A DNA stretch of 48,287 nucleotides from Ruminococcus sp. GTDB taxonomy: Bacteria; Bacillota_A; Clostridia; Oscillospirales; Acutalibacteraceae. The first letter of the stretch is position 1, and every line of letters starts with the position of its first letter. The translations under genes and the position numbers were made by a program. Where the stretch lies: the NCBI GenBank assembly GCA_017481395.1, contig JAFUPE010000059.1, positions 1 to 48,287 of the forward strand, written 5' to 3'. A model generated the notes under the pieces. That model was not told the DNA's origin. It did not search any database and saw only the letters and a list, made by a program, of their open reading frames with translations. This document shows positions 23,535 through 43,630 of the stretch, piece by piece.

Positions 23535-23604
23535 CCCACCGTTGATGAAAGGTTACCTGTAAATTATTTTTCCCAAAGGTGGAAATGCCCACCGTGGCTA
23601 ACGG
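23535..23604 (-). repeat. R1 dispersed repeat, copy a (3' of secA)
   Basis: On the minus strand this ~70-bp element begins with CCGTTAGCC directly after the secA stop codon and ends with ATCAACGGTGGG. It contains the hairpin GGTGG-GCATTT-CCACC. No separate secA terminator is visible, so the element may shape the secA mRNA 3' end. Confidence 0.75.
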
Positions 23605-26469
23605 TTAGTCTTCCTTACCGCAGCACTTTTTGTACTTCTTACCGCTTCCGCAGGGGCAGGGGTCGTTTCTGCCTACCTTTTTGCCTTTTACTACTGTGCG
23701 GTTGGTAGAAAGGGTGCCGTCGCCTGCAAACTCGGTGGGCTTTGCAACTTGCTCACGCTTGATTGCGAAGGTTACGGGGTTAACCTTAGGTGCGTCCTCT
23801 TTATTAAGATTGACCTGATGTGCTGCCGCCGCGGCTTTTTCAGCCTCGGCACGAAGCCTTGCCATTTCTTCCTGCTTTTTCTGGATTTCGCGTACCTTTT
23901 TAGGGGCGACAATCATAAGCTTAACGGTATCTTGGCGTATTGACTCAATCATTTGGTCAAACATATCGAAGCCTTCAAGCCTGAATTCAACAACAGGGTC
24001 TTTCTGAGCATAGGCACGCATACGGATACCCTGCTTTAATTCTTCCATGTTGTCGATGTGGTCCATCCAGTAGGTGTCAACGGATTTAAGCAGGTACACA
24101 CGCTCCATCTCACGCATGGTTTCTTCGGCTACAAGCTCTTCGTTTTCCTTGTAAAGAGTCTTTGCTCTGTTAAGAAGAAGCTCGGTAACCTCAGCTTTTC
24201 TCATAGACTTAACGTCGCCTCCGAAAAATTCGGGAGTACCCTCTTCGGTAACAAGCCAGCCGTTGTAGTATTCCTTAAGACCTACAACGTTCCAATCCTT
24301 AGGCTCGCCTACAAGATATGTGTCTACCATGTCGGTAACGGTTTGCTCGACCATTTTCATAATGGTGTCGTGGATGTCTTCGCCTTCTAAAACCTGATTA
24401 CGCTGGCCATAGATAATTTCTCTCTGGCGGTTCATAACGTCGTCATACTGCAGTACGTTTTTACGGATGCCGAAGTTACGCTGCTCAACCTTTTGCTGTG
24501 AACTTTCAATGATGTTTGAAATCATCTTATTTTCGATAGGCATATTTTCGTCAACGTTAAGGCGGGTCATCATCATTTTCATTCTGTCGCCGCCGAAAAT
24601 ACGCATAAGGTCATCTTCGGTAGAAAGGAAGAAACGGCTCTTACCCGGGTCGCCCTGACGGCCTGAACGGCCTCTGAGCTGGTTGTCGATTCTTCGGGAT
24701 TCGTGGCGTTCTGTGCCTATAATGTAAAGACCGCCTGCGGCCCTTACCTTTTCTGCTTCATCTTTGATTTCTTCTTTAAACTGAGCGTTAAGCTCTGAGA
24801 AGGTTTTTCTTGCCTCTAAGATTTCTTCGTCATTGGTGTCGCCAAAGCCCGTAGCCTCAGCTAAAAGCTCATCGGTAAAGCCCATTTTACGCATTTTGTT
24901 TTTTGCCATAAATTCGGCATTACCGCCAAGCATAATGTCGGTGCCTCGGCCTGCCATGTTGGTAGCAATGGTAACGGCACCAAACTTACCTGCCTGAGCA
25001 ACGATTTCGGCTTCCTTTTCGTGGTGCTTTGCGTTAAGCACGTTGTGCTCAATGCCGCGTTTTTTAAGAAGCTTACTGAGAAGCTCGGATTTCTCAATAG
25101 AAATTGTACCTACAAGCACAGGCTGACCTTTTTCGTGGCACTCAATAATTGTGTCGATAACGGCGTTGTATTTTGCCTGTTCGTTTAAGTAAATAGCGTC
25201 ATTTTCGTCAATTCTTGCCAAGGGCTTGTTGGTGGGAATTTCGACAACGTCAAGCTCGTAAATTTCTTTAAACTCCTGCTCCTCGGTCATGGCTGTACCT
25301 GTCATACCCGAAAGCTTTTCGTAAAGACGGAAGTAGTTCTGGAAAGTAATGGTTGCAAGGGTTTTGCTTTCATTCTGGATTTTAACGCCTTCCTTAGCTT
25401 CAATTGCCTGATGTAAGCCTTCGTTGTAACGTCTGCCGTACATAAGACGGCCTGTAAACTCGTCAACAATAACGATTTCGCCGTCTTTGTTAACGTAGTC
25501 AATGTCAAGATGCATAATGCCATGGGCACGTATTGCCTGATTGATGTGGTGTTGTAAAGTAAGGTTTTCGGGGTCGGTAAGGTTATCTAAACCAAAGTAG
25601 CTTTCTGCCTTTTTAACACCAACCTGAGTTAAGGTACAGGTCTTTGCCTTTTCGTCTACAAAGTAGTCGATGCCCTGCTCCTCGAAGAATTCTTCCATAT
25701 TTTCTTTATTGTCAACCTCGGTGAAAACATGCTTTTTAAGACGTTTTGCAAAGGAGTCGGCTTTTTGATAAAGGTCGGTGGATTTGTCGCCCTTGCCCGA
25801 AATAATAAGGGGAGTACGGGCTTCGTCAATGAGGATAGAGTCAACCTCGTCAACGATTGCGAAAACGTGCTTACGCTGAACGCGGTGCTCTTTGTATACC
25901 ACCATATTGTCACGAAGATAGTCAAAGCCAAGCTCATTGTTTGTGCCGTATGTAATGTCAGCTTCGTATTGCTTCTTTCTTAAATCGTTAGGCATATCGT
26001 GGATAATAAGACCTACAGTAAGGCCTAAAAAGCGGTATAGCTTGCCCATCCACTCAGAGTCACGCTTTGCAAGGTAGTCGTTGACTGTAACAATGTGAAC
26101 GCCCTTGCCGGTTAAGCCGTTCAAGTAAGCAGGTAAGGTAGCAACCAATGTTTTACCTTCACCTGTACGCATCTCGGCAATTCTGCCCTGATGAAGAATA
26201 ATACCGCCAATAATCTGAACGGGGAAATGCTTCATACCAAGTACACGCCATGAAGCCTCGCGGCAAACCGCAAAAGCCTCGGGGAGCAAATCATCTAACG
26301 TCTCGCCTTTTTCAAGTCTTTCTCTGAAAAGTACTGTCTGATTCTTAAGCTCGGCGTCGGTCATTTTTTCGTAGGTAGGTTCAAGTGCCAGAACCTTGTC
26401 GCAAAGAGGCTTTACTCTTTTAAGCTCCTTTTTGCTGTAGTCGCCGAAGAGGGTTTTTAAAAGTCCCAT
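23605..26469 (-). CDS. secA: Preprotein translocase ATPase SecA
   Basis: The 954-residue motor ATPase drives protein export through SecYEG. It has the N-terminal DEAD-like ATPase ([20 protein letters not shown], Walker A near residue 100; [20 protein letters not shown], Walker B), the preprotein cross-linking region, the second nucleotide domain ([31 protein letters not shown]), and the C-terminal zinc motif [13 protein letters not shown]. Length is slightly above the usual 840-900 residues, within the family range. AGGAAGAG precedes ATG 26469. It is a single gene with R1 repeats on both sides in opposite orientation. An extended -10 (TGATATACT on the minus strand near 26532-26540) is the likely promoter. 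Confidence 0.97.
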
Positions 26470-26592
26470 ATAACTCTTCCTTTCATATCTATCAAATTAC
26501 ATATTAAGCCATTTTAATATATTTAAATAAGTATATCATAGTTCGTACTAAAAATAAAGAAGAATTTAAGATATACTGTAAAGTTTTTATGA

Positions 26593-26661
26593 CCGTTAGC
26601 CACGGTAGGCGATTCCGCCTTTGTAAAGGTCAACTACAGAGGAAAACCTAATCAACGGCGG
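26593..26661 (+). repeat. R1 dispersed repeat, copy b
   Basis: This plus-strand copy begins CCGTTAGCCACGG and ends ATCAACGGCGG (69 bp), with an AGGC-GATTCC-GCCT hairpin. It lies between the secA start and the Fic terminator. It is the one copy not abutting a stop codon in sense orientation. Confidence 0.72.
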
Positions 26662-26662
26662 A

Positions 26663-26701
26663 TAATAAAAATCACAACCGATAAAATATCAGTTGTGATT
26701 T
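26663..26701 (-). terminator. Terminator of the Fic gene
   Basis: A 15-bp stem with one G-U pair (26669-26683 / 26687-26701) is followed on the minus strand by TTATTATCC. Confidence 0.85.
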
Positions 26702-26714
26702 CAAGTTCAAAAAA

Positions 26715-27317
26715 TTATAATTCCTCTGTTTTAAAAGCGGTGTAACCTTCGTAGTAGTAGCTGTGATCTATACCTTTCATATAGACCTCGCGGTCAGTCA
26801 CTTTGTCTGTCAGGGCATTTTTGAGGATATGCTTGATTTCGATATCCCTTATGGGACTGCGTTCCATTGCAAGCAGATAATCTTCTTTGTCCACCTTGCT
26901 CCAGTCTATAACCACGCCAAGCTCTTTTCTGAGGATTAGGTCAAGCCAGATGCGTGTGCTTCTTCCATTGCCTTCTCTGAAAGGATGAGCTATGTTCATT
27001 TCTACGTATTTCTCGATAATTTCGTCAAATGTAGATTGAGGCATTTTGTCAATATTTTCGAGTGAAGGCATAAGATACATAACGGGGGCAAAACGAAAGT
27101 TGCCTTTTGACAAGTTGACTGTGCGTATCTGTCCTGCAAAGGAGTATATCTCATCAAACAGATACTTATGAATTATTATGAGGGATTCAAATGTTCCTGC
27201 TTTAAGTGCATAGAGCATGCCTGTGTCGTAAAGCTCGGCGGCTTTTTTCTTGCTGATTTTTTCTTCAGCTTCTGCAAGCTCGGGTGCGTTATTAATATTG
27301 AGTTTGTTTTCAAGCAT
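26715..27317 (-). CDS. Class III Fic protein (AMP transferase) with built-in inhibitory helix
   Basis: The 200-residue protein has the Fic catalytic motif HPFREGNGRSTR (His111), which transfers AMP from ATP to target hydroxyls. Near the C-terminus SYYYEG (Ser186-Glu190-Gly191) fits the (S/T)xxxE(G/N) inhibitory motif, in the position typical of class III enzymes such as Neisseria NmFic, to which the sequence IDWSKVDKEDYLLAMERSP is also close. The enzyme is therefore likely autoinhibited and needs no separate antitoxin; none is encoded beside it. ATG 27317, 8 nt after AGAGG, is preferred to GTG 27326. It is flanked by R1 repeats in inverted orientation. The target is unknown. Confidence 0.88.
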   Translation of the reverse strand: MLENKLNINNAPELAEAEEKISKKKAAELYDTGMLYALKAGTFESLIIIHKYLFDEIYSFAGQIRTVNLSKGNFRFAPVMYLMPSLENIDKMPQSTFDEIIEKYVEMNIAHPFREGNGRSTRIWLDLILRKELGVVIDWSKVDKEDYLLAMERSPIRDIEIKHILKNALTDKVTDREVYMKGIDHSYYYEGYTAFKTEEL

Positions 27318-27372
27318 TTTTGTCACCTCTTTTATTATACCATAAATAATCTTATTTTCAATGATTTTGCAT

Positions 27373-27443
27373 CCCGCCGTTGATGAAAGTTTGCCTCAGA
27401 ATTAACCTGTTCAAGGGCGAAATTGCCCATCGTGGTTAACGGG
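27373..27443 (-). repeat. R1 dispersed repeat, copy c
   Basis: On the minus strand the copy begins CCCGTTAACC and ends ATCAACGGCGGG. Its first bases supply the last codon and stop (CGT TAA) of the small membrane gene at 27436. The hairpin arm is GGGC-AATTTC-GCCC. Confidence 0.75.
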
Positions 27444-27651
27444 ACTTTTTATGTAAAATCTTTCCGACGATAAAGGCAATGAGTGCAGGGGTTAAGAAAA
27501 CTACTGCTCTTGCAAGTACGAATACATAAAAGGGTGCGGAGTTAAGAGTGTTTGTGTAGCGGTAAGAGTCAATTGCTACAAGTACGCAGAAAGCAGCGGC
27601 TAAAATAATAGCGGCAATGTAAAAGATTTTGTAAAGTGTGATTTTTTTCAT
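27436..27651 (-). CDS. Small two-helix membrane protein after the PBP gene
   Basis: The 71-residue protein has two membrane helices (about 8-27 and 42-63) and a basic C-terminus (ILHKKSR). GAGG upstream supports the start. It lies 18 nt after the PBP gene and is probably co-transcribed with the cell-wall pair. Its last codon and stop come from an R1 repeat, so the original C-terminus may have been changed by the repeat. Function is unknown. Confidence 0.68.
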   Translation of the reverse strand: MKKITLYKIFYIAAIILAAAFCVLVAIDSYRYTNTLNSAPFYVFVLARAVVFLTPALIAFIVGKILHKKSR

Positions 27652-27669
27652 AATAAACCTCGTTTGTTT

Positions 27670-29007
27670 TTATTTGTTTCTAATAGCATCAGCAGAGCCC
27701 AGCATTGCAATTCTTGCAATAGGACCTGCACTGTAAAATCCGTAGTCGCCTTCTTCAACCACGACGGCAAAAGCTAAAGGAGCATCCTCGTCGGTGCTGT
27801 AGCCTATCATCCAGCCGTTTGGAAGCTTACCCTCGCCAACCTCGGCAGTACCTGTTTTGGCACATACTGTAAGGCCCTCAAACATACCGTCGCCATAATA
27901 GTCGGATATGGTGTACCGCATAAGGTCATTAAGGCTTTCTGCAACCTCTTCGCTCATAAGGCGTCCGCTTTTACCTGAGTTTTCGCCCTTTACATAGTGG
28001 GGAAGCCTTGTTTCGCCTCCTTGAGCAATTGCACCACACAGGATTGCCATCTGTGCAGGATTAACGGTATCGGTGTATTGACCGATGCCTGACCAGGCGA
28101 TAGAAATATCGTCGGCATCTTTTACGTCAAAATGCCCCGCGGCTGTATATACCTCGCCGATTCGAAAGCTTTTATTAATGCCCATAGCCTCGGCGGTTTT
28201 CTGTAAGTTTTCTTTGCCAACAAGAAGTGCCGAGTCACCGAATGCAATGTTGCATGAATAAGCAAAGGCATTGTGAAGACTAAGGCTTTTATGCTTTTCA
28301 AGACAGGTTACTTCGTAATTTCCGATTTCCTTTTTACTTTCGCAGTTGAAGGTCGTATTTTTGTATCCGTTAACGTGTTCAAAACCTGCGGCGGCAGTAA
28401 TTATCTTGAAAATCGAGCCGGGAGTGTAGGTAGAGGAAATACAGTTGTTAAGGTAAGAGCCGTCCTCGGGGGTTTCGGGAATATTCATAGGGTCATAGGT
28501 AGGTGCACTTACCATGGTAAGAATCTCGCCTGTTTTGTAGTTATACACAAAGCAGGCACCCTTTCTGCCTTCAAAAGCCTCGTAAACCTCGGTGCAAACC
28601 TCGGCGTCAAGGGTGATTTCAACATTTTGTTTGCCCTTAAGGCTTTGCGGGAGACCATAGCCGAAAATTTTGCTATGACCCGAAATGCGGTCGCGGTAAG
28701 CAGTTTCCACAGCAGTTGCAATGTTATAGGAGCCGTCACCTACGGTGTGAAGCAAAGCTTTGCGTGTGCTTTCATTTTCATTATAAATTCGCTCGCCGTT
28801 TTCGCTTGTTGCAAGGGCTACGCCGTTACGGTCTAAAATGTCGCCTGCATTTGCAAGACCTTGTCCCGACACCATATAGGGGTTGTAGCTCTGAGCCGCC
28901 CACAAGTCTGCATCAATAACATATTTTACGCACAAGAAGCCAAGCCCCAGCAAAAATGCCGCAGCTAAAATAAGGGATATTATGCTTCTTGACATAGTCT
29001 TTTTCAT
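27670..29007 (-). CDS. Class B penicillin-binding protein (transpeptidase)
   Basis: The 445-residue protein has an N-terminal anchor helix (about 8-30), a short dimerisation-like region and a transpeptidase domain with the three active-site motifs: Ser198-x-x-Lys201 (PGSIFK), SCN at 251-253 and KTG at 384-386. It cross-links peptidoglycan. It is small for a class B PBP and resembles PbpA of Clostridia and actinobacteria. The FHA-SEDS gene upstream in the same orientation would be its glycosyltransferase partner. AGGTG lies 6 nt before ATG 29007. Confidence 0.92.
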   Translation of the reverse strand: MKKTMSRSIISLILAAAFLLGLGFLCVKYVIDADLWAAQSYNPYMVSGQGLANAGDILDRNGVALATSENGERIYNENESTRKALLHTVGDGSYNIATAVETAYRDRISGHSKIFGYGLPQSLKGKQNVEITLDAEVCTEVYEAFEGRKGACFVYNYKTGEILTMVSAPTYDPMNIPETPEDGSYLNNCISSTYTPGSIFKIITAAAGFEHVNGYKNTTFNCESKKEIGNYEVTCLEKHKSLSLHNAFAYSCNIAFGDSALLVGKENLQKTAEAMGINKSFRIGEVYTAAGHFDVKDADDISIAWSGIGQYTDTVNPAQMAILCGAIAQGGETRLPHYVKGENSGKSGRLMSEEVAESLNDLMRYTISDYYGDGMFEGLTVCAKTGTAEVGEGKLPNGWMIGYSTDEDAPLAFAVVVEEGDYGFYSAGPIARIAMLGSADAIRNK

Positions 29008-29021
29008 TTTAAGTCACCTAC

Positions 29022-29100
29022 TGTAGTGGCGGATATTATCCGCCCGAAAGGTTTGGCTTATATCAAAGGTTCAGTGGGCGATTATTAATCGTCCCTACGA
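29022..29100 (-). repeat. R2 dispersed repeat, copy in the SEDS-PBP gap
   Basis: Two palindromes, GGCGGATATTATCCGCC (29028-29044) and GGGCGATTATTAATCGTCCC (29076-29095), bound a ~30-bp AT-rich centre. The outer bases are TGTAG and CTACGA. The CTA at 29095-29097 is the stop codon of the SEDS gene on the minus strand. An inverted relative lies at 43710-43786. Confidence 0.75.
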
Positions 29101-30762
29101 TTTTTTACTATACGTTCTTTCGTCTGCCGCCTTAATAAAGGCTAAAAGTCCCCAGCAGGAAAGCATGCTGGAACCGCCTGCGCTGACAAAGGGCAGGGTA
29201 ACTCCTGTAAGGGGCAGTATGTCGGTACAGCCGAAAATATTAAGGCTCATTTGTACTAAAAGAAGAGTCGCCGCACAGGAGGCAGAAATCGAGTAAAACG
29301 TGCTACGGCTTCTGGTTGTCATGGCGCGTGTATAAAAAACAAGGCCGCAAATTGCAATTGCAATTGTAATTGCGATTATTAGTCCCATTTCCTCAGTTAC
29401 AATACCAAAAACAAGGTCGGTTTCAGAAGCACCGTAGTACCGTAAGTTTCCGCTGCCCACACCTGTGCCGAAAAGTCCGCCCGAGGCGATGCTTGTCAAT
29501 GTGCCTGCCTGCTGATAGCCAAGGTCGTAAGGGTCGTCAAGAGCGTGTCCCCAAATGGAGAAACGCTCGGCAATATATGGCTTGAAGTTTAAAACCAGAA
29601 GCACCGCAAAGGCGGCACCTACAAGTGCAAGAATTACGGTTTTGTAGTCGCCTGAACGGGTTATGGAAATTACAATAAAGGTTACGAAAAATATAAGTGC
29701 AGTACCAAAGTCGCCCATAAGTGCCAAGGCACCTACACACATAGCAGAGAAAATAATAAACTCTAAAAAGTTACGCCTTGTCTGCAGATAGTCCAGAGCC
29801 GCCGCACCTACAAAGATGTACGCGATTTTTACAATTTCAGAGGGCTGAACAGATATTCCGCCGATGTAAATACGGTTTGCGGCACCAAATTCAACAGTAC
29901 CAAAAACAAGGTTTACTGCCAAAAAGCCTAAGGCGGCAATCATAATTGCCCAACGCCATTTAATAACTCTGTCGGGATTTTTTATAAAAGCAAGGATTGC
30001 CATATAAAGCATTGCACCTGCAACAGCAGATGCTACCTGAACAATGGCGTCAGACATATCCTGCTCTACCAAAAGAAGCGAGCCAAGTCCCGTAAGCCAC
30101 AAGGCAAGGGTTTCGAGTTCGAAATTTTTGCGTGAAAAAACGCCTGCTGAAAAGGCGTAAAGCACCCACGAAAATGCAGTTACGACACCGAAAATCATAA
30201 GTGCGTTCAGGTTAAGAGAGTTGGTGGTAACGCAGATTTCAGCTGTCATAAAAAGGTGAAAAAGGTTAACTAAAATAAGCAGAAGACCTGATGAAACCGA
30301 AGGCTTATGCGAAGCCTTTGAGAAAAACCAAGAGGGCCTTATGTCCTCGTTGTATGCTTCGCCTCTCATCAAAATAAGGCTTGTGCCGCCTATGGTAATA
30401 GTGTCGTCAATAAAAACCTGAGTTCTGCCCGAAACGAGTTTGCCGTTTACCTTTGTGCCGGATTTCGAGCCTGTGTCGTTAATAAACCATCCTGCCTTTC
30501 GCCTTAAAAGCACACAGTGGCTTCTGGAAACCGTGCCATCTTCGATTACGATGTCACTGCCTCTTGCTCTGCCAATAGAATTTTCCCAGAAAAGTACGGG
30601 GATTTTTATATCAAAACGCCTGTTATAAAGCATTAGCAGGGGCTTTTCGGGGCGTTTGTGGCGACGCATGGAGGCAAAGCAGTGGTACACAATGAACACT
30701 GCATAAATGCTAAGCATAATTCTTAAGCCGACAACGGCAATGTCCGCCATAGCCTGCACCAT
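29095..30762 (-). CDS. FHA-domain SEDS protein (FtsW/RodA-like glycan polymerase)
   Basis: The 555-residue protein starts with one membrane helix and a FHA domain (about 50-135; IGRARGSDIVIEDGTVSRSHC and NDTGSKSGTKVNG), then has a SEDS domain with about ten helices. SEDS signatures are VQPSEIVKIAYI, GDFGTALIFF and LPFVSAGGSSML. SEDS proteins polymerise peptidoglycan strands with a class B PBP partner, here the next gene. The FHA domain reads phosphothreonine, so kinase control of wall synthesis is likely (inference). AAGGAGG fixes ATG 30762. The last codons and stop lie in R2, so the very C-terminus may be repeat-derived. Confidence 0.93.
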   Translation of the reverse strand: MVQAMADIAVVGLRIMLSIYAVFIVYHCFASMRRHKRPEKPLLMLYNRRFDIKIPVLFWENSIGRARGSDIVIEDGTVSRSHCVLLRRKAGWFINDTGSKSGTKVNGKLVSGRTQVFIDDTITIGGTSLILMRGEAYNEDIRPSWFFSKASHKPSVSSGLLLILVNLFHLFMTAEICVTTNSLNLNALMIFGVVTAFSWVLYAFSAGVFSRKNFELETLALWLTGLGSLLLVEQDMSDAIVQVASAVAGAMLYMAILAFIKNPDRVIKWRWAIMIAALGFLAVNLVFGTVEFGAANRIYIGGISVQPSEIVKIAYIFVGAAALDYLQTRRNFLEFIIFSAMCVGALALMGDFGTALIFFVTFIVISITRSGDYKTVILALVGAAFAVLLVLNFKPYIAERFSIWGHALDDPYDLGYQQAGTLTSIASGGLFGTGVGSGNLRYYGASETDLVFGIVTEEMGLIIAITIAIAICGLVFYTRAMTTRSRSTFYSISASCAATLLLVQMSLNIFGCTDILPLTGVTLPFVSAGGSSMLSCWGLLAFIKAADERTYSKKS

Positions 30763-30792
30763 ATAAACGCCTCCTTTTGATTTATTATAGTT

Positions 30793-30822
30793 ATAGTATT
30801 CCTTTTTATAGCCTTTTGTCAA
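30793..30822 (-). promoter_or_regulatory. Sigma-A promoter of the SEDS-PBP operon
   Basis: On the minus strand a perfect TTGACA (30822-30817) and TACTAT (30798-30793) are 18 bp apart. Confidence 0.6.
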
Positions 30823-30839
30823 CAAACAAAATGTAAATT

Positions 30840-30875
30840 TTAACAATGGCTCTCCCGTAAACATAAGGAGAGCCA
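30840..30875 (-). terminator. Hairpin after the decarboxylase gene
   Basis: A 9-bp perfect stem (30847-30855 / 30867-30875) is followed on the minus strand by TTGTTAAAATTT, a weak T tract. Confidence 0.65.
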
Positions 30876-30879
30876 CAGC

Positions 30880-32220: not shown

Positions 32221-32222
32221 AA

Positions 32223-33602: not shown

Positions 33603-33620
33603 AAAAATATCTCCTAATCA

Positions 33621-33645
33621 CAAAAAATGCCGCCAAAAGGCGGCA
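33621..33645 (-). terminator. Hairpin terminator between scfA and scfB
   Basis: A 7-bp GC-rich stem (TGCCGCC 33628-33634 / GGCGGCA 33639-33645) with a 4-nt loop is followed on the minus strand by TTTTTT. It would let the precursor be made in excess over the maturase. Confidence 0.88.
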
Positions 33646-33668
33646 AAGCTTTGCGTAATTAAAACAAA

Positions 33669-33815: not shown

Positions 33816-33848
33816 AATAAATTCCTCCGAAATTATATTTCTAAAAGT

Positions 33849-33877
33849 ATTTTACCACGCAATGGGTGATAAGTCAA
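33849..33877 (-). promoter_or_regulatory. Sigma-A promoter of scfA
   Basis: On the minus strand TTGACT (33877-33872) and TAAAAT (33854-33849) are 17 bp apart, just after the end of the CYTH gene. Confidence 0.82.
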
Positions 33878-33881
33878 TGTT

Positions 33882-35244: not shown

Positions 35245-35247
35245 ATA

Positions 35248-36849
35248 TTATTTTTTTGGTCTGTAAAAAATGGTTCTCAGCTTATAGAATATTTTCTCCA
35301 TCCAGATTCTGTAGCTATGGAAATAAAGATTAGGGATTTCAACCTTTGCATCAACCACGTCTTTGTTTTTGTACTCCATAATTCTTTTGTGCACAGAGTC
35401 TGACTTTCTCTCGTCGTGAGGGAAAGAAAGGAATAACTCCAGAATTTTTCTGTTGTTCATAGGCATGGTTGTTCTGTGGTAAAGCTGTTGCGACGAAACA
35501 ACAGATACACCCCAACAACCCATACGGATTTCCCAATAAAATGAATCGGTGTGCTCAAAGTTGTAAAGGGGCTTTTCCAGGTGTATGTCTCTTAAGAACT
35601 TATAGTAAGTCTTATCAGACCACTTAAGCAGAGACGGATGACCAAAGTATCTGGTTTGGAAAATACTGCAATGGCGTTCGCTTAAAGTTGTGGGAATGTT
35701 GGTTTGATATTTTCGCTCTAAAAATACACGAGCAACCTCGGACGCCCATGACTTAAGTTCGATATCATATGCGTTTAAGTCGTGAAGGTAGATGTATTTA
35801 CGAATTTCGTTGTCCGCAAGATTAACAAAATAGTTTGTATTATGTTGTAAAAGCTTTTTGATGAATTCAAAATCCTTGATTTCGCTGTTTTCCTGAGGTA
35901 TTTCATATAAGACATGCTCGAGTCCGAGTTTGTCGCAGATTGTTTTAGCACCCTTGGCATCCACAAGCTCCTGTGGCTTTGAATGGAAACTGAAGTATGT
36001 GAATTTGTCGTATAATCCACTTGCACAGGCAAGGGTGGTTTTGCTGTCGGTGCCTCCCGAAAGGGAAATGGTGCATCTGTCCCATTTTTTAGTGCAGCAC
36101 TCAATACCGTTGTGAATTAAATCACCGATTTTCTTGATATTATCAGCCTTTTCGTTGTCGGTAGTGAATTCCGGATGGGGTGCGGTGGGGTAAAATCTGA
36201 CTATTGAGAAATCATTATCAAAATTCAAATATGTATTGGCACCCAGACGAGTAATTTCTTTATAAGGAGATAGGTTTCCGGGAAGATGGCGGTTACCGAT
36301 ATTATAGCATTTGGATTCTACCAGCTTTTCGACCATTGGGTCCATTTTTAGGTTGCACAGGTCAGCAACAAGCTGAGGATGCTCGGTAATATACATTGCT
36401 CCGTCAATTTTTCCGAAGTAGCAGCCTGTAAGTGAGCAAGCATCCTGACAGGCTATTACCTTCTTGCCGTCTATTAACATAATAACATGTAAGCCGGTAA
36501 GCTCGGAAACCTTGTCAAAATAATCGGATAAACCGTTTTTATAGCATGTAATAAGTTCTTTGCATATTTCGTTTTCGTCATACATCATATTAAACGGATT
36601 ATATGCGTGTCCTATAATAACAGCGGTTAAATCTGAATCTGACTGAACATAGAAGGTCTGTTCTTTTTGTACATAAAGGTAATAACCATTTATTATGGTT
36701 TCTGACCATATTCCGTAAAAGGGGTACTCCTCGGTAGCCTTGATTTGGTTACTTGTAAAAAGATAGCCGCGTCTGAACAGCATTTCTCTGTACAAACTGT
36801 TTTTGTCTAACTCGGCTTTGATTTGCTCTTTTAAAATTTCTATGCTCAT
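35248..36849 (-). CDS. Asparagine-synthase-like amidotransferase without a Cys2 glutaminase
   Basis: The 533-residue protein has a C-terminal asparagine synthase domain with the PP-loop SGGTDS (residues 264-269). The N-terminal half resembles a class II glutaminase fold but does not begin with Met-Cys, so the usual nucleophile is absent. AsnB-like enzymes amidate free Asp or, in some Firmicutes, diaminopimelate in peptidoglycan. Here the neighbours are Ddl, a sugar transferase and a phosphoesterase, which suggests a surface-polymer substrate (inference). It might use free ammonia or make a different bond. ATG 36849 is 9 nt after GGTGGAG and is preferred to GTG 36864. Confidence 0.78.
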   Translation of the reverse strand: MSIEILKEQIKAELDKNSLYREMLFRRGYLFTSNQIKATEEYPFYGIWSETIINGYYLYVQKEQTFYVQSDSDLTAVIIGHAYNPFNMMYDENEICKELITCYKNGLSDYFDKVSELTGLHVIMLIDGKKVIACQDACSLTGCYFGKIDGAMYITEHPQLVADLCNLKMDPMVEKLVESKCYNIGNRHLPGNLSPYKEITRLGANTYLNFDNDFSIVRFYPTAPHPEFTTDNEKADNIKKIGDLIHNGIECCTKKWDRCTISLSGGTDSKTTLACASGLYDKFTYFSFHSKPQELVDAKGAKTICDKLGLEHVLYEIPQENSEIKDFEFIKKLLQHNTNYFVNLADNEIRKYIYLHDLNAYDIELKSWASEVARVFLERKYQTNIPTTLSERHCSIFQTRYFGHPSLLKWSDKTYYKFLRDIHLEKPLYNFEHTDSFYWEIRMGCWGVSVVSSQQLYHRTTMPMNNRKILELFLSFPHDERKSDSVHKRIMEYKNKDVVDAKVEIPNLYFHSYRIWMEKIFYKLRTIFYRPKK

Positions 36850-36893
36850 TTTATACAACTCCACCTATTTGAATTATATAGCTTACTTTAAAT

Positions 36894-37940
36894 TTATTTC
36901 GAAATTCCTGCTCCTTCTATAAGCTCTTCCATTAATTTTTCAATGGGGTAGCCGACTTCACCCATCATCATGGGATACATACTGATTTCGGTAAAGCCGG
37001 GCAGGGTATTGATTTCGTTAAATACTACTCTGCCGGAGTCTTCCATAAAAAAGTCAACCCTTGAAAGTCCGTTACAACCTAAGGCTTTAAAAATGGCCTC
37101 GGCATATTCTTTAACTGTTTCATTTACACCTTCGGGAATATCGGGGTTAAGAACGGTTTTTGAATCGGCGTTGTTATACTTAGCCTCATAGCTGTAGAAA
37201 ACGTCGCCTGCTACAGCTTCGCCTGCGTTTGAGCAGACAAGTGTGCCGTTTTTCTCTAAAACTGCACACTCAAGCTCGCGGCCCTTAATGGTTTCTTCGA
37301 TAAGCACCTTGGAGTCGTGCTTAAGTGCAAGGTTTACTGCATTAATAAGCTCTTCGCGGTTTTCTGCTTTGGAAACACCTTGTGAAGAGCCGGATTTGCA
37401 GGGTTTAACAAACATGGGATAGCCTAAGGTCTTCTCAGCTTTATCAATATAGCTTTCGCTTTCTCCCGGTCTGACTAAAACGTAATTTGCCTGAGGAATG
37501 TTTTTAAGGCTGTCTACAATGATTTTGGTGTAGGCTTTGTCCATCGAAACGGCAGATGCTACTACACCGCAGCCTACATATGGAATAGAGCAAAGCTCAA
37601 AAAGTCCCTGAATAGTTCCGTCTTCGCCGTTTTTGCCATGAAGCACAGGAATGATTGCATCAATGTGAATAACGTCGTTATTGCCGTTTAACAGCACAAG
37701 ACCTTTACCCGGACAAAGCATCGCAGGTGTGTTTGAGGCTTCGTCGTACCATTTGCACTGAGCAATTAAAGCGGTGTCAGCGGTGTAGTATACCCAGTCG
37801 CCGCTTTTCTTGATGCCTACAAGGTGTTTTTCGTATTTTGAGTCAGGTATGTTTTTAATAAAATTCATAACCGATTTACAGGAAACCTCGTGCTCGGTTG
37901 AATTTCCGCCGAATATAATAAGAACAGATTTTTTATCCAT
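36894..37940 (-). CDS. ddl: D-alanine--D-alanine ligase
   Basis: The 348-residue ATP-grasp ligase makes D-Ala-D-Ala for peptidoglycan. It has FGGNSTEHEVS, VLHGKNGEDGTIQG, MFVKPCKSGSSQGV and FNEINTLPGFT. The omega-loop region reads FYSYEAKY, with the Tyr typical of D-Ala-D-Ala ligases rather than the D-lactate-type VanA. AAAGG precedes ATG 37940, which I prefer to the longer start. It is 16 nt after the hydroxyacid dehydrogenase gene. Confidence 0.93.
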   Translation of the reverse strand: MDKKSVLIIFGGNSTEHEVSCKSVMNFIKNIPDSKYEKHLVGIKKSGDWVYYTADTALIAQCKWYDEASNTPAMLCPGKGLVLLNGNNDVIHIDAIIPVLHGKNGEDGTIQGLFELCSIPYVGCGVVASAVSMDKAYTKIIVDSLKNIPQANYVLVRPGESESYIDKAEKTLGYPMFVKPCKSGSSQGVSKAENREELINAVNLALKHDSKVLIEETIKGRELECAVLEKNGTLVCSNAGEAVAGDVFYSYEAKYNNADSKTVLNPDIPEGVNETVKEYAEAIFKALGCNGLSRVDFFMEDSGRVVFNEINTLPGFTEISMYPMMMGEVGYPIEKLMEELIEGAGISK

Positions 37941-37956
37941 AATATACCTTTCAAAT

Positions 37957-38871
37957 TTAGTTTTTGCCGTAATCAAACTCTGTAAGATTTTTGTAGATAA
38001 GCTCAAAAAGCCGCCCGTTTACGGCGTCTGAAACAAAGCTGTTGTGAGGGGTAACGTGCACCCTCGGGAGAGCCCACAACGGACTTTGAGGCGAAAGCGG
38101 CTCTTCTTCAAAAACATCCAAGGCTACGCCTCTTAGTTTGCCGTCACATATAGTCTTGATAAGGTCGGCTTCGTTAATGATTTTGCCTCTGGAAATATTT
38201 ATGAGCACAGCATCATCCTTTAAACAGCTTAAGGTTTCTTCGTTTATGATGTGCTGGGTTTTCTCGGTAAGAGGCAAGCATAGCAGAGCTATGTCGCAAA
38301 GCTTAAGTGCAGTATGCAAGCTGTCCATATAAAAGAATTCGTCTACAAATTCACATTTGCTGTCAAAGATATCGGCACCCAGTACCCTTGTGCCGAATGC
38401 CTTGAAGCGTTTTGCACATTCCTGACCGATGTTGCCAACACCGATAATAAGAACGCTTTTCCCGTAAAGCTCAAGAAGGTTACGGTTTTTCTCCCAAAGC
38501 TTTTGCTCCTGGTTTTTGTAAAAGAATTTGCTGTCCTTGTAAATTTCAAGGGCTTTAAGCAACGCCCATTCTGCCATTGGTATGTTATAAACGCCTTTTG
38601 CGTTAAAAAGTGCAATTCCCCTTTGAGCAAATCGGCTTACGGGAATTCTATCGTAGCCTGCACTGGTAAGCTGAACCGCCCTGAGGCTTTCAAAGTCTTC
38701 AACGTTGTTGTACATAAAAAGAGAGTTGCACACAACTGCGTCAAACTGACTGCAGTCAACAGAAAGCGGCTCGAGCTCGTTTTGGATATATGTAATTTCA
38801 AAGCCTGCACTTTTCAGTGCGTTAAGCTGCTCTTCGGTATACTGAAATGCTCCTGTTAAAAGAAGCTTCAT
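37957..38871 (-). CDS. D-2-hydroxyacid dehydrogenase family protein
   Basis: The 304-residue NAD-dependent enzyme has the nucleotide motif GVGNIG (near residue 143), the family segments INISRGKIINEADL and LDVFEEEPL, and TPHNSF with the likely catalytic His. Family members interconvert 2-keto and D-2-hydroxy acids. GGGGAGG fixes the start. It lies between the sugar transferase and ddl. A VanH-type role was considered and rejected. Its substrate is unknown. Confidence 0.85.
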   Translation of the reverse strand: MKLLLTGAFQYTEEQLNALKSAGFEITYIQNELEPLSVDCSQFDAVVCNSLFMYNNVEDFESLRAVQLTSAGYDRIPVSRFAQRGIALFNAKGVYNIPMAEWALLKALEIYKDSKFFYKNQEQKLWEKNRNLLELYGKSVLIIGVGNIGQECAKRFKAFGTRVLGADIFDSKCEFVDEFFYMDSLHTALKLCDIALLCLPLTEKTQHIINEETLSCLKDDAVLINISRGKIINEADLIKTICDGKLRGVALDVFEEEPLSPQSPLWALPRVHVTPHNSFVSDAVNGRLFELIYKNLTEFDYGKN

Positions 38872-38908
38872 ATAAAAACCTCCCCGCTATACTTTATGCA
38901 AGGCGACA

Positions 38909-39544
38909 TTATTTGTTGACAGTTTCCTTTTTCTCAGCCTGAGCCTTGGCGGCTGTCTCGGTGGTGTTTTCGTTGTCGGCGTTTTTGAGCACCTTGAAAA
39001 TAGATATAAAGAAAATCTTGAAATCAAGGACAAAAGAAATATTTCTTGTGTACCATACGTTAAGCTCGATACGCTTGTTCCACTCTACGTCCTTTCTGCC
39101 GTTTACCTGTGCCCAGCCTGTTACGCCGGGACGCACGTCAAACATATGCTTTTGTTCCTCAGAGTAATCCTCCAAAGGCCAGGGGTGGTATGTAAGCGGG
39201 GGACGGGGGCCTATGATGCTCATATCGCCCTTTAGAATATTCACAAGCTGAGGAAGCTCATCGATGCTGGTGGCACGTATAAATTTGCCTACCTTAGTAA
39301 CCCTTGCGTCGCCTTTGCCCGAGTAAACGCCGGAGCCTGTATGCTCGGCACCTACGCACATGCTGCGGAATTTGTAGATATCAAAAACCTTACCGCCTTT
39401 GCCGAGTCTTTGCTGTTTAAAAATAACAGAACCCTTTGAGTCAAGCTTTATGCACAACGCGGTAATTGCCAGTACGGGAGATAAAATGATTAGCCCTAAC
39501 AGAGAAATAACAACATCTGCACAGCGTTTTATAAATTTATACAT
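38909..39544 (-). CDS. Bacterial sugar transferase (undecaprenyl-phosphate priming enzyme)
   Basis: The 211-residue protein has one N-terminal helix and the catalytic core of polyprenyl-phosphate hexose-1-phosphate transferases: KQQRLGKGGKVFDIYKFRSM, ATSIDELPQLVNILKGDMSIIGPRPP and VRPGVTGWAQVNGR. It puts the first sugar phosphate on the lipid carrier for a surface glycan. A Glu/Lys/Thr-rich tail follows. AGGGG precedes ATG 39544. It is the first gene of a minus-strand operon and is divergent from the sugar-nucleotide dehydratase gene that could supply its substrate. Confidence 0.93.
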   Translation of the reverse strand: MYKFIKRCADVVISLLGLIILSPVLAITALCIKLDSKGSVIFKQQRLGKGGKVFDIYKFRSMCVGAEHTGSGVYSGKGDARVTKVGKFIRATSIDELPQLVNILKGDMSIIGPRPPLTYHPWPLEDYSEEQKHMFDVRPGVTGWAQVNGRKDVEWNKRIELNVWYTRNISFVLDFKIFFISIFKVLKNADNENTTETAAKAQAEKKETVNK

Positions 39545-39611
39545 ATTCTCTACCCCTCGGAATATTAAATAAAAGACATTTCGCAACAAACTTCACAATT
39601 ATTCATCTTAC

Positions 39612-39639
39612 ATTATAACATATAAAATAAGAAAATCAA
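39612..39639 (-). promoter_or_regulatory. Promoter of the surface-glycan operon
   Basis: On the minus strand TTGATT (39639-39634) and a perfect TATAAT (39617-39612) are 16 bp apart, with TGT before the -10 (extended). Confidence 0.72.
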
Positions 39640-39665
39640 CGAAAAATGTTTATATTAATCTTTAA

Positions 39666-39694
39666 TTGACATTACGACTTATAAGTTGTATAAT
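39666..39694 (+). promoter_or_regulatory. Sigma-A promoter of the dehydratase-glmS operon
   Basis: Perfect TTGACA (39666-39671) and TATAAT (39689-39694) are 17 bp apart. The spacer contains the 10-bp palindrome ACTTATAAGT (39677-39686), a possible operator. Confidence 0.88.
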
Positions 39695-39740
39695 TTATCT
39701 GTAAAATTGCGTACATTGTTTCTTTGACAGAGGTAAAGTG

Positions 39741-41648
39741 ATGAAAAAATTCAGTTCCCGTAAAGGATTTTTACTTATCGCAGATATACTTATCGTGGCG
39801 GTGACAGGCACGTTCTCTAATCTGGCACTTATGTGGGCAGATATTCTGCGTGGTGTTTCGCCTTCTCAGAATTTTTCGGTTCCGTGGTCTACTATGACGC
39901 TGTTGCTCGGCATTGTAGGGCTTTTTACGCTTTTGTTTTTGTTAAGCTTCGGTGCGTATTCCTTTTTCTGGCGACTTTACGGCAAGAAGGACTTTTTGCT
40001 TTGCGGCATAGCTGTTACGCTAAGCTTTGGCGTAAGCGGTGTTTTTTCATATTACTTCAAGATGTTTGACGGCGGTTTTCCGTTTGTTTATTATATTATA
40101 TTTTACCTTGCGGCTCTTTTCTGTATGTTGTTTATCAGGGTCCTTTTCAAAAAGGCAATTGTTCGTCTTACTGAAGCAGGCAGGGAAGAAAACAGCCGAC
40201 GCACCCTTATTGTAGGTGCAGGTCAGGCAGCAAAGCTTATTTTAGCCGATATTGAAAGTGCCAAAAGTGACCCCAACAACCCTTCTCACGACATTTTTCC
40301 TGTGTGTATGGTTGATGACAACAGGGCTAAGTACGGCACAAAAATAGGCGGTGTGCCAGTGCTGGGTAATACTCAGGATATTCCTCAAATTTGTAAGGCG
40401 AACAACATTTCCCTTATTTTATTTGCCATTCCCTCCTGTACCGACGAAGAAAGAAAGCAGATTCTTGAAATTTGCTCTGAAACCCAGTGTAACATTAAAA
40501 TGGTACCATATTTAAGCGAGCTGTATTTTGACGATACGAGCCGCGGTAAGGGAATTTTAAAGCAGGTTCAGGATATAAAAATTGAGGACCTTTTAGGCAG
40601 AGACCCCATATCCTTTGACAAAGAAAGCATAAAAGCGTTTATTAAGGGCAAGGTTTGTATGGTTACAGGCGGCGGCGGCTCCATAGGCTCTGAGCTTGTA
40701 AGGCAGATTGCAAATTACGACCCTAAGCAGATTATCATTGTAGACATCTACGAAAATAATGCTTACGACATTCAGCAGGAGCTTCTTTTAGAGCACGAGG
40801 ACAGATTAAATCTTGTTACTCTTATTGCTTCGGTAAGAGATTACGACAAGATGGATAGCATATTTAAGGAATACAGACCCAATATCGTTTTCCATGCCGC
40901 GGCTCACAAGCATGTTCCTCTTATGGAAACCTCTCCTGAGGAAGCTGTAAAAAACAATATTTTTGGCACTCAGAACGTGGCAACCCTTGCCGAGGTTTAC
41001 GGCGTAGAAAAATTTGTTATGATTTCTACAGACAAGGCTGTTAACCCCACTAACGTAATGGGTGCTACCAAACGCTGTTGCGAAATGATTGCCCAGTACA
41101 AGGCTCAGCACAGCACAAAAACCGACTTTGTTACAACTCGTTTCGGTAACGTATTAGGCTCTAACGGCTCGGTTATTCCTCTTTTCCGCCGTCAGATTGA
41201 AAGCGGCAAGCCTGTTACCGTTACACACCCCGACATTATCCGCTACTTTATGACAATTCCCGAGGCTGTGTCGTTAGTGCTTCAGGCAGGTGCCATGGCA
41301 CATGGCGGCGAAATTTTCGTTCTTGATATGGGCGACCCTGTTAAGATTACAACCTTGGCTGAAAACCTTATCAGAATGTATGGTAAGGTGCCCTACAGGG
41401 ACGTTGAGATTAAGTTCACCGGTCTTCGTCCGGGCGAGAAGCTTTTTGAAGAGCTTCTGATGAACGAAGAGGGACTTAAGTCCACTGAAAACAAGAAAAT
41501 CTTCATCGGCAATCAGATTGCCATTGACGAAGAAGACCTGCTTTCAAAGCTTTCTGAGCTTAAAAAATACGCAGACGAAAACAACAGCGAAAAGGTTGTG
41601 GAAATGTTATCATCAATTGTTCCCACCTTTAAGCATAAGATAAACTAA
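39741..41648 (+). CDS. Membrane NDP-sugar 4,6-dehydratase (CapD/PglF type)
   Basis: The 635-residue protein has four N-terminal membrane helices (about 12-135), a first Rossmann domain (VGAGQAAKLI near 158) and a C-terminal SDR dehydratase domain with TGGGGSIGSE (about 309-318) and STDKAVNPTNVMGATK, where the Ser-Met-Lys-type triad replaces Tyr. It probably converts UDP-GlcNAc to the 4-keto-6-deoxy sugar for surface glycans such as those carrying diNAc-bacillosamine. GAGGT sits 7 nt before ATG 39741, which I prefer to GTG 39738. It is 33 nt upstream of glmS, which supplies amino sugar. Confidence 0.93.
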   Translation: MKKFSSRKGFLLIADILIVAVTGTFSNLALMWADILRGVSPSQNFSVPWSTMTLLLGIVGLFTLLFLLSFGAYSFFWRLYGKKDFLLCGIAVTLSFGVSGVFSYYFKMFDGGFPFVYYIIFYLAALFCMLFIRVLFKKAIVRLTEAGREENSRRTLIVGAGQAAKLILADIESAKSDPNNPSHDIFPVCMVDDNRAKYGTKIGGVPVLGNTQDIPQICKANNISLILFAIPSCTDEERKQILEICSETQCNIKMVPYLSELYFDDTSRGKGILKQVQDIKIEDLLGRDPISFDKESIKAFIKGKVCMVTGGGGSIGSELVRQIANYDPKQIIIVDIYENNAYDIQQELLLEHEDRLNLVTLIASVRDYDKMDSIFKEYRPNIVFHAAAHKHVPLMETSPEEAVKNNIFGTQNVATLAEVYGVEKFVMISTDKAVNPTNVMGATKRCCEMIAQYKAQHSTKTDFVTTRFGNVLGSNGSVIPLFRRQIESGKPVTVTHPDIIRYFMTIPEAVSLVLQAGAMAHGGEIFVLDMGDPVKITTLAENLIRMYGKVPYRDVEIKFTGLRPGEKLFEELLMNEEGLKSTENKKIFIGNQIAIDEEDLLSKLSELKKYADENNSEKVVEMLSSIVPTFKHKIN

Positions 41649-41681
41649 GCAAAACAAAATCCATTTTGAAGGAGATTTCCT

Positions 41682-43508
41682 ATGTGCGGAATAGTCGGAT
41701 ATGTAGGTAAAAATGATTGCAGTGAGGTTTTGGTTAATGCTCTTTCAAAGCTGGAGTACCGAGGTTACGATTCGGCAGGTATTGCAGTTTTTGAAAACGG
41801 GGACGTAAATGTTATCAAGGCCGAAGGCAGACTTAAAAACCTTGAAGATAAAATGAAGGCAGAGCTTTTTCCCAAGGGAAGTGCAGGCATAGGCCATACC
41901 CGTTGGGCAACTCATGGCAAGCCTTCTGATATTAATTCTCACCCTCATATTGGCGGTGAGTATGTAACCTTGGTACATAACGGTATTATTGAGAATTATC
42001 GTGAGCTTAAGGAAAGACTCGAAGCCGAAGGCCGTGAGTTTTACAGCGAAACAGATACTGAGGTTGTAGCAAAGCTTCTCGACTTTAACTACGAAGGCGA
42101 CCCAGTAAAAGCTATTGAAAAAACTCTTGCCGAGGTTCAGGGTTCCTTTGCACTTGGCATCCTTTTCAAGGATATTCCTAACGTAATTTACGCCGTAAGA
42201 CGCGGAAGTCCTCTTATAGTAGGCGTAAAGGACGATGAAGGCTTTATCGCTTCTGACGTTCCTGCAATTATCAAGTATACTAAAGATTATTATCTTTTAG
42301 AGCACGATGAGATTGCCCGCATTGCCGAGGGTGACATAAGATTTACCGATTTAAAAGGTAATTCTATAGAAAAAGAGCTTAAAACCGCTGACTGGGATAT
42401 GGATGCCGCAGAAAAGGGCGGTTACGAGCACTATATGCTTAAGGAAATCAACGAGCAGCCCGACGCAGTAAGAAAGACAGTTGCTCCCAGAGTTTTTCAT
42501 GGTATGCCCAGTCTTGAGGAATGCTCTATTACAGTGGAAAACCTTAAGGATATAAAGCAGGTGTTTATTGTAGCTTGCGGTACTGCAATGCACGCAGGTA
42601 TGGTGGGCAAGTATGCCATCGAAAAGCTTGCACGTGTTCCCGTTGTGGTTGATATTGCTTCCGAGTTCAGATATCGTGCTCCCTTGGTAGGCGAGGGCGA
42701 CTTGGTTATTATTATTTCTCAGTCGGGCGAGACCGCCGACAGCCTCGAGGCGTTACGTGTTTCGAAGGCACTTGGTGCAAAGGTTATGGGTGTAGTAAAC
42801 GCTAAGGGAAGCTCTATTGCTCGTGAGTCCGATATGCTTGTTTATACCCACGCAGGTCCCGAAATAGCAGTTGCATCTACAAAGGCATATATGGTGCAGA
42901 TTGCTGTTATGTATCTGCTTTCATTTGAGCTTGCTTTTGCGAAAGGCAAAATCAGCGAGGCTGAGTGCAAGCGTCTTACAGCGGAGCTTATGGCAATGCC
43001 CGAAAGAATTGCTGAGATTATCAAATCTACAGATGAAATTTCCAAGGAAGCCGCCAAAGAGCTTATTGAAGCTGAAAGTCTTTTGTATATCGGCAGAGGT
43101 TTTGACTACGCTCTTTCAATGGAAGGTTCTTTGAAGCTTAAGGAGATTTCATATATTCATTCTGAATGCTATGCCGCAGGTGAGCTTAAGCACGGCACAA
43201 TCTCACTTATTACCGACGGTATGCCTGTTATAGCTGTTGCTACACAGTCAGACCTTTTTGATAAGACCATCTCAAATATCAAGGAGGTTAAGGCAAGAGG
43301 TGCCAAGGTACTTCTTGTGTGCGGCGAAGGCTTCGAGGTAGGCGAGGACGTAGCCGATATCATTATTCGCGTTTCCATGTGCGAAGAAATGCTGATGCCG
43401 ATGTCCGCCATTGTGCCTTTACAGCTTGTTGCTTACTATTCGTCTGTATTACGCGGTAACGACGTAGATAAACCCCGTAACCTTGCAAAATCAGTTACAG
43501 TAGAATAA
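41682..43508 (+). CDS. glmS: Glutamine--fructose-6-phosphate aminotransferase
   Basis: The 608-residue enzyme makes glucosamine-6-phosphate, the first step to UDP-GlcNAc. It begins MCGIVGYVG, with Cys2 as the glutaminase nucleophile after Met removal. Other motifs are GIGHTRWATHG, the SIS domains (CGTAMHAG, ISQSGETADS) and the C-terminal KPRNLAKSVTVE. AAGGAG supports the start. Only 33 nt separate it from the dehydratase gene, so a glmS ribozyme is not present. An R1 repeat begins 2 nt after the stop. Confidence 0.97.
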   Translation: MCGIVGYVGKNDCSEVLVNALSKLEYRGYDSAGIAVFENGDVNVIKAEGRLKNLEDKMKAELFPKGSAGIGHTRWATHGKPSDINSHPHIGGEYVTLVHNGIIENYRELKERLEAEGREFYSETDTEVVAKLLDFNYEGDPVKAIEKTLAEVQGSFALGILFKDIPNVIYAVRRGSPLIVGVKDDEGFIASDVPAIIKYTKDYYLLEHDEIARIAEGDIRFTDLKGNSIEKELKTADWDMDAAEKGGYEHYMLKEINEQPDAVRKTVAPRVFHGMPSLEECSITVENLKDIKQVFIVACGTAMHAGMVGKYAIEKLARVPVVVDIASEFRYRAPLVGEGDLVIIISQSGETADSLEALRVSKALGAKVMGVVNAKGSSIARESDMLVYTHAGPEIAVASTKAYMVQIAVMYLLSFELAFAKGKISEAECKRLTAELMAMPERIAEIIKSTDEISKEAAKELIEAESLLYIGRGFDYALSMEGSLKLKEISYIHSECYAAGELKHGTISLITDGMPVIAVATQSDLFDKTISNIKEVKARGAKVLLVCGEGFEVGEDVADIIIRVSMCEEMLMPMSAIVPLQLVAYYSSVLRGNDVDKPRNLAKSVTVE

Positions 43509-43510
43509 AT

Positions 43511-43630
43511 CGTTAGCCATGATGGACAATTCCGACCGTTAGCCACGGCGGACAATTCCGACCGTTAGCCACGGCGGGCAATTCCGCCTTTGGACAGGTT
43601 GGCTAAATAGGTCAACTGCATTTACAGCGG
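43511..43630 (+). repeat. R1 dispersed repeat, copy d, with a tandem triplicated head
   Basis: The R1 head occurs three times in tandem as 26-bp units (43511-43536, 43537-43562 and from 43563), each beginning CGTTAGCCA. Only the third continues into the element body (to about 43630). Units 1 and 2 have GGACAATTCCGA, which breaks the hairpin; unit 3 has GGCGGGCAATTCCGCC, which restores it. The copy lies 2 nt after the glmS stop. Confidence 0.78.

Follow-up and report, generated by a model that had tools for sequence, protein, structure and literature searches.

A two-helix repeat of about 70 bp lying flush with stop codons in ruminant-gut Clostridia, probably a non-autonomous mobile element

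The window examined here, the whole 48,287-nucleotide stretch of Ruminococcus sp. contig JAFUPE010000059.1 (assembly GCA_017481395.1), carries four copies of a repeat of about 70 bp, referred to as R1, which an initial annotation of the sequence had described as a palindrome starting at stop codons. We consider it fairly probable that R1 belongs to the non-autonomous, non-coding mobile elements of the general REP/MITE kind (MITE, miniature inverted-repeat transposable element) and settles, and is kept, at the 3' ends of genes. Its abutment to stop codons is exact and one-sided. From 5' to 3', R1 consists of a hairpin (H1), a short linker, CCRCC, a conserved CTTTGGA stretch, a variable middle, a conserved TTCATCAAC stretch and GGYGG, with CCRCC and GGYGG pairing as a second helix (P1) that closes the 3' part. 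The analysis rests on 142 copies in 1.56 Mb (the window and four related metagenome-assembled genomes, or MAGs), part of them also used to build the search model, on contigs chosen for containing blastn matches to R1. The copies were merged into 124 same-strand blocks, extended across tandem H1 modules. It should be noted that the wider survey rests on related genomes, the window's own genome not being among them.

Distances were measured from the start of each block to the nearest sense stop, with gene ends taken from our own open reading frame (ORF) caller rather than from annotation. On this measure, 54 of the 124 blocks start between -12 and +6 nt from a sense stop, 21 of them at exactly 0, negative values meaning that the stop lies inside the copy's own CGTTAG/CGTTAA or its stem. 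The stop-codon preference noticed in the window holds in this larger set, where 35/124 blocks (28%) lie at 0 to +6 nt as opposed to 2.5% of noncoding position-orientations (7,395 of 294,904). When only ORFs of at least 300 nt are considered, 49 of 118 placed blocks fall within -12 to +6 nt. Stops next to an element are TAG in 10/54 cases, compared with 57/1,258 among ORFs with a stop. Fourteen further blocks of the 124 start just behind a terminator hairpin with a T run, as called by our own hairpin finder and counted without a computed null, and a few more were seen by eye.

The abutment concerns the 5' side alone. Among 40 blocks lying between convergent genes, the 3' edge nearest to the end of the next gene is 53 nt away, and in six other genomes 14/49 blocks are flush on the 5' side and 0/49 on the 3' side. 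These 49 unique blocks derive from 75 model matches in 50 loci, drawn from the best-scoring among the matches listed, and 28 copies of such other genomes, partly at the same places, had been inspected beforehand. Orientation could be assigned for 118 of the 124 blocks. The upstream gene is in sense in 86/118, 40/118 lie between convergent genes (13% of intergenic length), 4/118 between divergent genes (22%), and 28/118 are antisense to both neighbors. When single modules are counted with an R1 5'-module pattern, 24/126 are stop-flush; in the same contigs the corresponding counts are 1/57 for a second abundant repeat with the form GTAGGGG, 2/15 for its GTAGGGA form, and 7/259 and 6/368 for two loose patterns. 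The start of this second repeat, GTAGGG(A/G)CG, also matches the window at 29090-29098 and 43775-43783, both on the minus strand; the pair is not significant alone, as 5/100 shuffles have as many, and the repeat is common in related MAGs, where it is rarely stop-flush. A replication-strand bias was considered and set aside, since 31/54 flush blocks lie on the G-rich strand, no excess over genes (798/1,273).

Comparisons between copies support the dissemination of R1 to new sites with sharp 5' ends. For example, two copies in the MAG G002 (L062:19724 and L073:10396) are 96% identical over 71 bp, which is the element itself, while their immediate flanks are 50-52% alike, and two in G004 (L056:2144 and L059:19862) are 93% identical over 73 bp with flanks 50-54% alike; random pairs of copies from different genomes share on average 73% identity. 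Pairs at least 85% alike with both flanks below 60% number 2 in G001, 8 in G002, 10 in G004 and 0 in G005. Other recent pairs share 14-107 nt past the 3' edge, and the 5' edge is therefore the sharper of the two; L070:2929 and L073:10396 are alike upstream instead. Likewise, a 1,001-base query around a terminator-type G004 copy at a stop matches six other places in G004 only from 441-445 to 514-534, with the base of H1 at position 443 of the query; of the blocks at these six places, some start at a stop codon, some behind a terminator, and some at neither of these. Of the two possibilities offered by the initial annotation, an mRNA 3'-end element or a mobile palindrome, these data favor dissemination, although the choice is only partly settled. 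At L071:11449-11690 (G002), a 155-bp head-to-tail duplication, 97% alike, contains R1 together with parts of a reverse-oriented repeat.

No sequence motif accounts clearly for the choice of site. Before 51 non-stop blocks (14 array-like ones having been dropped), TNA was tried as a target and rejected (7/51 against a 10% background). YNA precedes 17/51 against a background of 15%, with several orthologous sites among the 51, a hint that it could be part of a target; the triplet is far too common to explain the stop-codon peak.

Within the window, R1 is present in all four noted stretches. A 23-base consensus of the 5' module, written from the very copies it finds, gives 6 matches with at most three mismatches, as opposed to 0 in each of 100 shuffles. 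Against a covariance model built from 39 R1 copies, three of the four window copies among them, copies A, C, B and D score 78, 77, 72 and 53 bits. The relevant features are as follows.

23535..23604, minus strand: copy A, a complete R1 of about 70 bp (78.2 bits; the match includes 15 nt of flank)
23605..26469, minus strand: secA
26593..26661, plus strand: copy B, a complete R1 with P1 CCGCC/GGCGG (71.7 bits)
27373..27442, minus strand: copy C, a complete R1 (76.8 bits)
27436..27651, minus strand: 71-aa ORF ended by copy C
41682..43508, plus strand: glmS (SIS and glutamine amidotransferase domains)
43509..43562, plus strand: copy D, extra tandem 26-bp 5' modules, two H1 units (20.4 bits)
43563..43630, plus strand: copy D, third H1 module and body, with a weaker P1 (52.8 bits)
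43664..43688, plus strand: terminator-like hairpin AAACCCCGCTTAACGGCGGGGTTTT

Three of these copies begin at sense stop codons, as first described. In copy A (H1 CCGT/ACGG with loop TAGCC; P1 CCACC/GGTGG), CCGTTAGCC begins at 23604, right after the secA stop TAA (23605-23607). Copy C does supply the last codon and stop of the 71-aa ORF, which runs from 27651 to 27436 and ends CGT TAA inside the repeat; homologous DNA in G005 and G002 has its own stop, and R1 is absent at that point. Copy B is not at a sense gene end but upstream of secA, in antisense orientation; G005 has a copy at the same point. Copy D, which occupies 43509 to about 43688 of the plus strand, proved to be a composite rather than a fourth simple copy, with three tandem 26-bp modules (two of them extra), one body and the terminator-like hairpin. 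Its H1 stem ATCGT/ATGAT, with one G-U pair, already starts at 43509, next to the glmS stop TAA (43506-43508); the copy is thus flush with this stop and not 2 nt behind it, as had been stated. The AAACCCCGCTTAACGGCGGGGTTTT hairpin is the same 3' end as that of a terminator-carrying R1 subtype found elsewhere, and the true 3' end of copy D is probably at 43664..43688. The window had no match in Rfam at gathering scores, and six R1 loci gave 3 sub-threshold matches only (best E 0.23). Just past the 3' end of the secA copy, at 23415-23505, inspection by eye shows a series of small hairpins that have similar spacers and differing stems (TTTGCCTTACGGCAAA, ACACTTCGTGTT, TTTGCTTCGCAAA), a series that an exact-spacer search missed; comparable series of variable-stem hairpins, set apart by constant spacers, are present in spacer regions of G002 and G004.

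The two helices are maintained by compensatory change. The H1 loop is mostly TAGCC, while the stem is free in sequence, with nine different 4-bp stems observed. At least four Watson-Crick pairs form in 93 of the 117 copies used for this test (out of 142), compared with a mean of 31 and a maximum of 46 when arms are shuffled. For P1, 147/170 entries of the helix table could be parsed and the 111 in register were taken; 103 are fully paired with G-U allowed (shuffled mean 89.9, maximum 96). The model alignment gives 103 double-change cells for H1 and P1 together versus a shuffled mean of 24.2, and sliding the partner reduces the covariation score from 0.302 to at most 0.126, values that lean toward structure because the alignment was fitted to it. 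In the six other genomes, H1 stems and loops differ (AGCC, TGCC) and the P1 arms and the following stretch are kept; a script recovers, in 36/49 blocks, an H1 that has 4 bp or more and GCC at the loop. That the H1 stem drifts by compensatory change while its loop stays mostly constant suggests that it is recognized by its shape. The 5' module is amplified in tandem, and many copies have short, partly complementary ends (CCGTT..AACGG) that are lost where H1 differs.

The initial annotation had placed covariation in an internal hairpin of the 5' part (GGYGG/CCRCC). The idea of covarying arms survives for H1 and P1 and fails for that hairpin, where 39 of the 103 copies tested (out of 142) are fully paired against a shuffled mean of 38.7; CCACC goes instead with the 3'-terminal GGTGG, in 14/15 copies. 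An inner helix AGGTT/AACCT and a P1 extension TTG/CAA likewise gave no covariation, and a pseudoknot between the TAGCC loop and the following GGC was dropped by eye because distant copies carry AGCC at both places. The sense strand of four single copies folds no better than shuffles (z -0.28 to -1.40).

R1 is a short extragenic palindrome in high copy number, its 142 copies lying mainly between genes. A 26-base degenerate pattern run against a genome contig collection found 10 stretches in five MAGs (G001-G005), named Ruminococcus sp., Clostridia bacterium or Oscillospiraceae bacterium and recovered from roe deer, goat and sheep gut, with SIG571 being without stated origin. Searches with one R1 copy (blastn, E<=0.1) gave 23, 24, 2, 8 and 9 matches in these five MAGs, and the covariance model at E<=1 gave 97, 132, 20, 62 and 68 in the five genomes of 1.4-1.9 Mb, with 150 candidates scored per genome and a threshold that lets in some chance matches. 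At E<=0.001, R1 is present in 47/148 relatives of G001 (G001 counted) and in 30/60 genomes of the genus sample of G004 (G001 and G004 counted); at E<=1e-4, with stricter filters and 15 candidates scored per genome, it is present in 1/291 genomes of a class sample, namely G001. There was no exact R1 pattern match in viral contigs and no blastn match to one R1 copy in plasmids. So far as these genomes indicate, R1 appears restricted to one clade of ruminant-gut Clostridia. Three 5'-module strings had no match in open-licence PMC full text, and topic searches of the literature brought up no description of R1 recognizable from titles and the starts of abstracts.

Under the mobile-element explanation, a trans-acting factor would recognize the folded strand of R1 by its shape, as suggested by the free sequence of the H1 stem. 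Insertion would favor gene ends, and copies there would be tolerated or kept because R1 supplies a stop of its own (CGTTAG/CGTTAA) together with a 3'-UTR hairpin and, in some cases, a terminator. Several results weigh against such an element. No target-site duplication was found, as no best-scoring offset exceeded the largest shuffle for 109 of the 124 blocks. No cognate transposase was found, and the Y1 domain was not found in the element-rich genomes G001, G063, G023 and G091. A pattern search of the 1.56 Mb set, which stops short of whole genomes, revealed no longer autonomous version or parent insertion sequence (IS). The G002 pair L062:19724/L073:10396 also shares a 66-bp repeat downstream, which leaves the surroundings of the two copies not entirely independent, and the MAGs are too distant from each other for a clean empty site. 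Lastly, copies at points shared between genomes are 0.745 alike (27 pairs) versus 0.727 for random ones (sd 0.05); such likeness, and the occupancy described below, would also be expected of old copies that drift rapidly within structural limits. With regard to machinery, PF01797 (Y1) is present in 8/12 genomes at 12 loci, one of which (L147, G005) has an R1 match nearby (27.7 bits, E 4e-5). A pattern partner is missing for 11/67 5' modules and 14/91 3' ends, which by eye are variants, array units or coding matches, and no constant tetranucleotide (GTAG or CGTC) precedes H1 in flank tables and listings.

Alternatively, R1 may be foremost a functional RNA of mRNA 3' ends, with H1, directly behind the stop codon, affecting either the terminating ribosome or 3' decay, and with its position set and maintained by selection rather than by insertion preference, an account that we regard as rather unlikely. 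It is favored by the compensatory changes that keep H1 and P1, by the predominance of blocks whose upstream gene is in sense, by the precedent of E. coli discussed below, and by comparisons of occupancy and age. A list of empty sites (29/71 pairs) was replaced by the occupancy comparison, as it contained decayed copies and at least one wrong entry, the window glmS copy. Where the upstream flank of a block has a homologue in another genome, R1 occupies the corresponding point in 51/95 cases, made up of 31/48 stop-flush and 20/47 other copies (Fisher p 0.04), a value that is too good because pairs were counted from both sides. The age test used 120 of the 124 blocks, with the window left out. 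Among the youngest copies, whose 44-nt core is at least 0.9 identical to that of another copy, 5/25 are flush compared with 46/95 of the others (p 0.012), and retention may therefore contribute to stop-flush placement. However, this effect is gone at cut-offs of 0.80 (p 0.71) and 0.85 (p 0.33) and when all values are taken together (p 0.52), and it is influenced by tandem copies of G002. Moreover, even the youngest copies are flush well above the 2.5% background, leaving room for insertion preference, and H1 stems are not longer at stops than elsewhere (mean 4.61 versus 4.73 bp), an argument against a role peculiar to stop codons. The 14 blocks just behind terminators would be transcribed only on read-through, those antisense to both neighbors also count against an mRNA role, and so does the ordinary folding of single sense copies.

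Occupied points are not confined to stops. Antisense R1 copies lie at the same point at L102:12317-12401 (G001), L089:8403-8485 (G005) and L046:10178-10262 (G004), adjoining a promoter-like TTGAAA..TATAAT downstream (by eye, in G001), and two of them are 90% alike; from its shared position, this non-stop copy was probably inherited vertically. R1 also abuts a TTTCACGTGAAAC palindrome, which resembles a ParB-binding parS site, at the same point at L088 ~195-290 (G005) and L101 ~3810-3907 (G001).

A doubtful variant of mobility holds that R1 is a 3'-end module whose insertion reads the end of translation or transcription and not mainly DNA sequence. The cue would be a terminating ribosome, the released end of a transcript, or DNA exposed there; copies would land flush with a stop or a terminator, and the gene would gain a stop, a 3'-UTR hairpin and sometimes a terminator.

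It is improbable that placement reflects passive bias alone, in which insertion is random between genes, copies landing inside genes or promoters disappear, and the useless gap that remains is closed by deletion. Such a process would fit the preference for convergent and avoidance of divergent spacers, a pattern shared with pneumococcal BOX, RUP and SPRITE repeats and attributed to tolerance by the authors in passages of PMC3049150. Yet the second abundant repeat in the same contigs is hardly ever stop-flush, the abutment is one-sided (no 3' edge within 50 nt in the 40 convergent cases, and none among the 49 blocks of the six other genomes), and distances peak at 0 rather than being spread over the 3' UTR.

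That R1 is a portable transcription terminator is very improbable: although 10/142 copies have a 3'-terminal stem of 6 bp or more with a T run behind it, a G004 subfamily with 92-93% identical copies is of this subtype, and the window glmS copy including its terminator folds well (z -2.89), the other 132/142 copies fail the same test, the subtype is no more often stop-flush (4/9 blocks versus 50/115 for the rest), and terminators are not generally replaced by R1, as 19/54 genes with a flush element have one within 220 nt of the stop compared with 157/356 controls. In the first 80 nt past the stop, a terminator is present in 4/54 such genes versus 126/356 controls, which indicates that R1 mostly lies between the stop and what follows.

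Comparison with known systems begins with integron attC sites, which are folded, lie directly after a stop codon and have a variable stem. R1 resembles them in all three respects but follows housekeeping genes such as secA and glmS, and by eye the attC core-site motifs are not matched; this identity was set aside on the motifs, no search for cassettes or an integron integrase having been made. MITEs of IS families, such as Correia elements, are non-coding and intergenic, with a sharp 5' end and short, partly complementary ends. R1 shares these features, with CCGTT..AACGG ends in many copies, but its terminal complementarity is not kept when H1 changes, and neither a target-site duplication nor, by pattern in the 1.56 Mb, a parent IS was found. 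The main text of a MITE review has 0 mentions of "stop codon" (PMC10969869).

BOX, RUP and SPRITE are small non-autonomous repeats with predicted RNA structures and an excess between convergent genes that, as far as the relevant sections of PMC3049150 go, is explained by tolerance. According to the same sections, BOX grows in a modular manner, BOX and RUP have terminal inverted repeats and target-site duplications, and SPRITE is terminator-like and located near the 3' ends of coding sequences, with no target-site duplication that could be established (PMC3049150). R1 is likewise a small non-autonomous repeat with a convergent-gene excess, and it grows by modules as BOX does. It differs from BOX and RUP in that no target-site duplication was found and the sequence of its 5' stem varies freely.

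REP/REPIN sequences, known from Enterobacteria and Pseudomonas, are characterized in parts of PMC3733652 as short, palindromic, extragenic and present in many copies, often linked to IS200/IS605-type transposases, with GTAG/CGTC tags and RAYTs. In E. coli, 446/4,072 REPs lie within 15 nt of an upstream stop, as given in excerpts of PMC12306157, which also quote an earlier study in which 260/496 E. coli REPs were proposed as translational regulators, translation being reduced only at that distance. R1 is similar in being a short extragenic palindrome present in many copies near stop codons. Unlike REP/RAYT systems, it has no GTAG/CGTC tag before H1, and Y1 was not found in four element-rich genomes; unlike REPs, it measures about 70 bp, has two separate helices, and peaks at 0 nt with the base of its stem on the stop codon. 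R1 thus works like REP and MITE elements but fails tested features of both, namely transposase and tag in the one case and duplication in the other. Since E. coli REPs are already known near stops, nearness to stops alone is not new. In R1, the abutment is base-precise and one-sided, recurs in several genomes, is not shared by the other abundant repeat in these contigs and has no clear target motif. Either there is a transposition route that favors the ends of genes, or a hairpin is being tuned by selection to its place against the stop codon.

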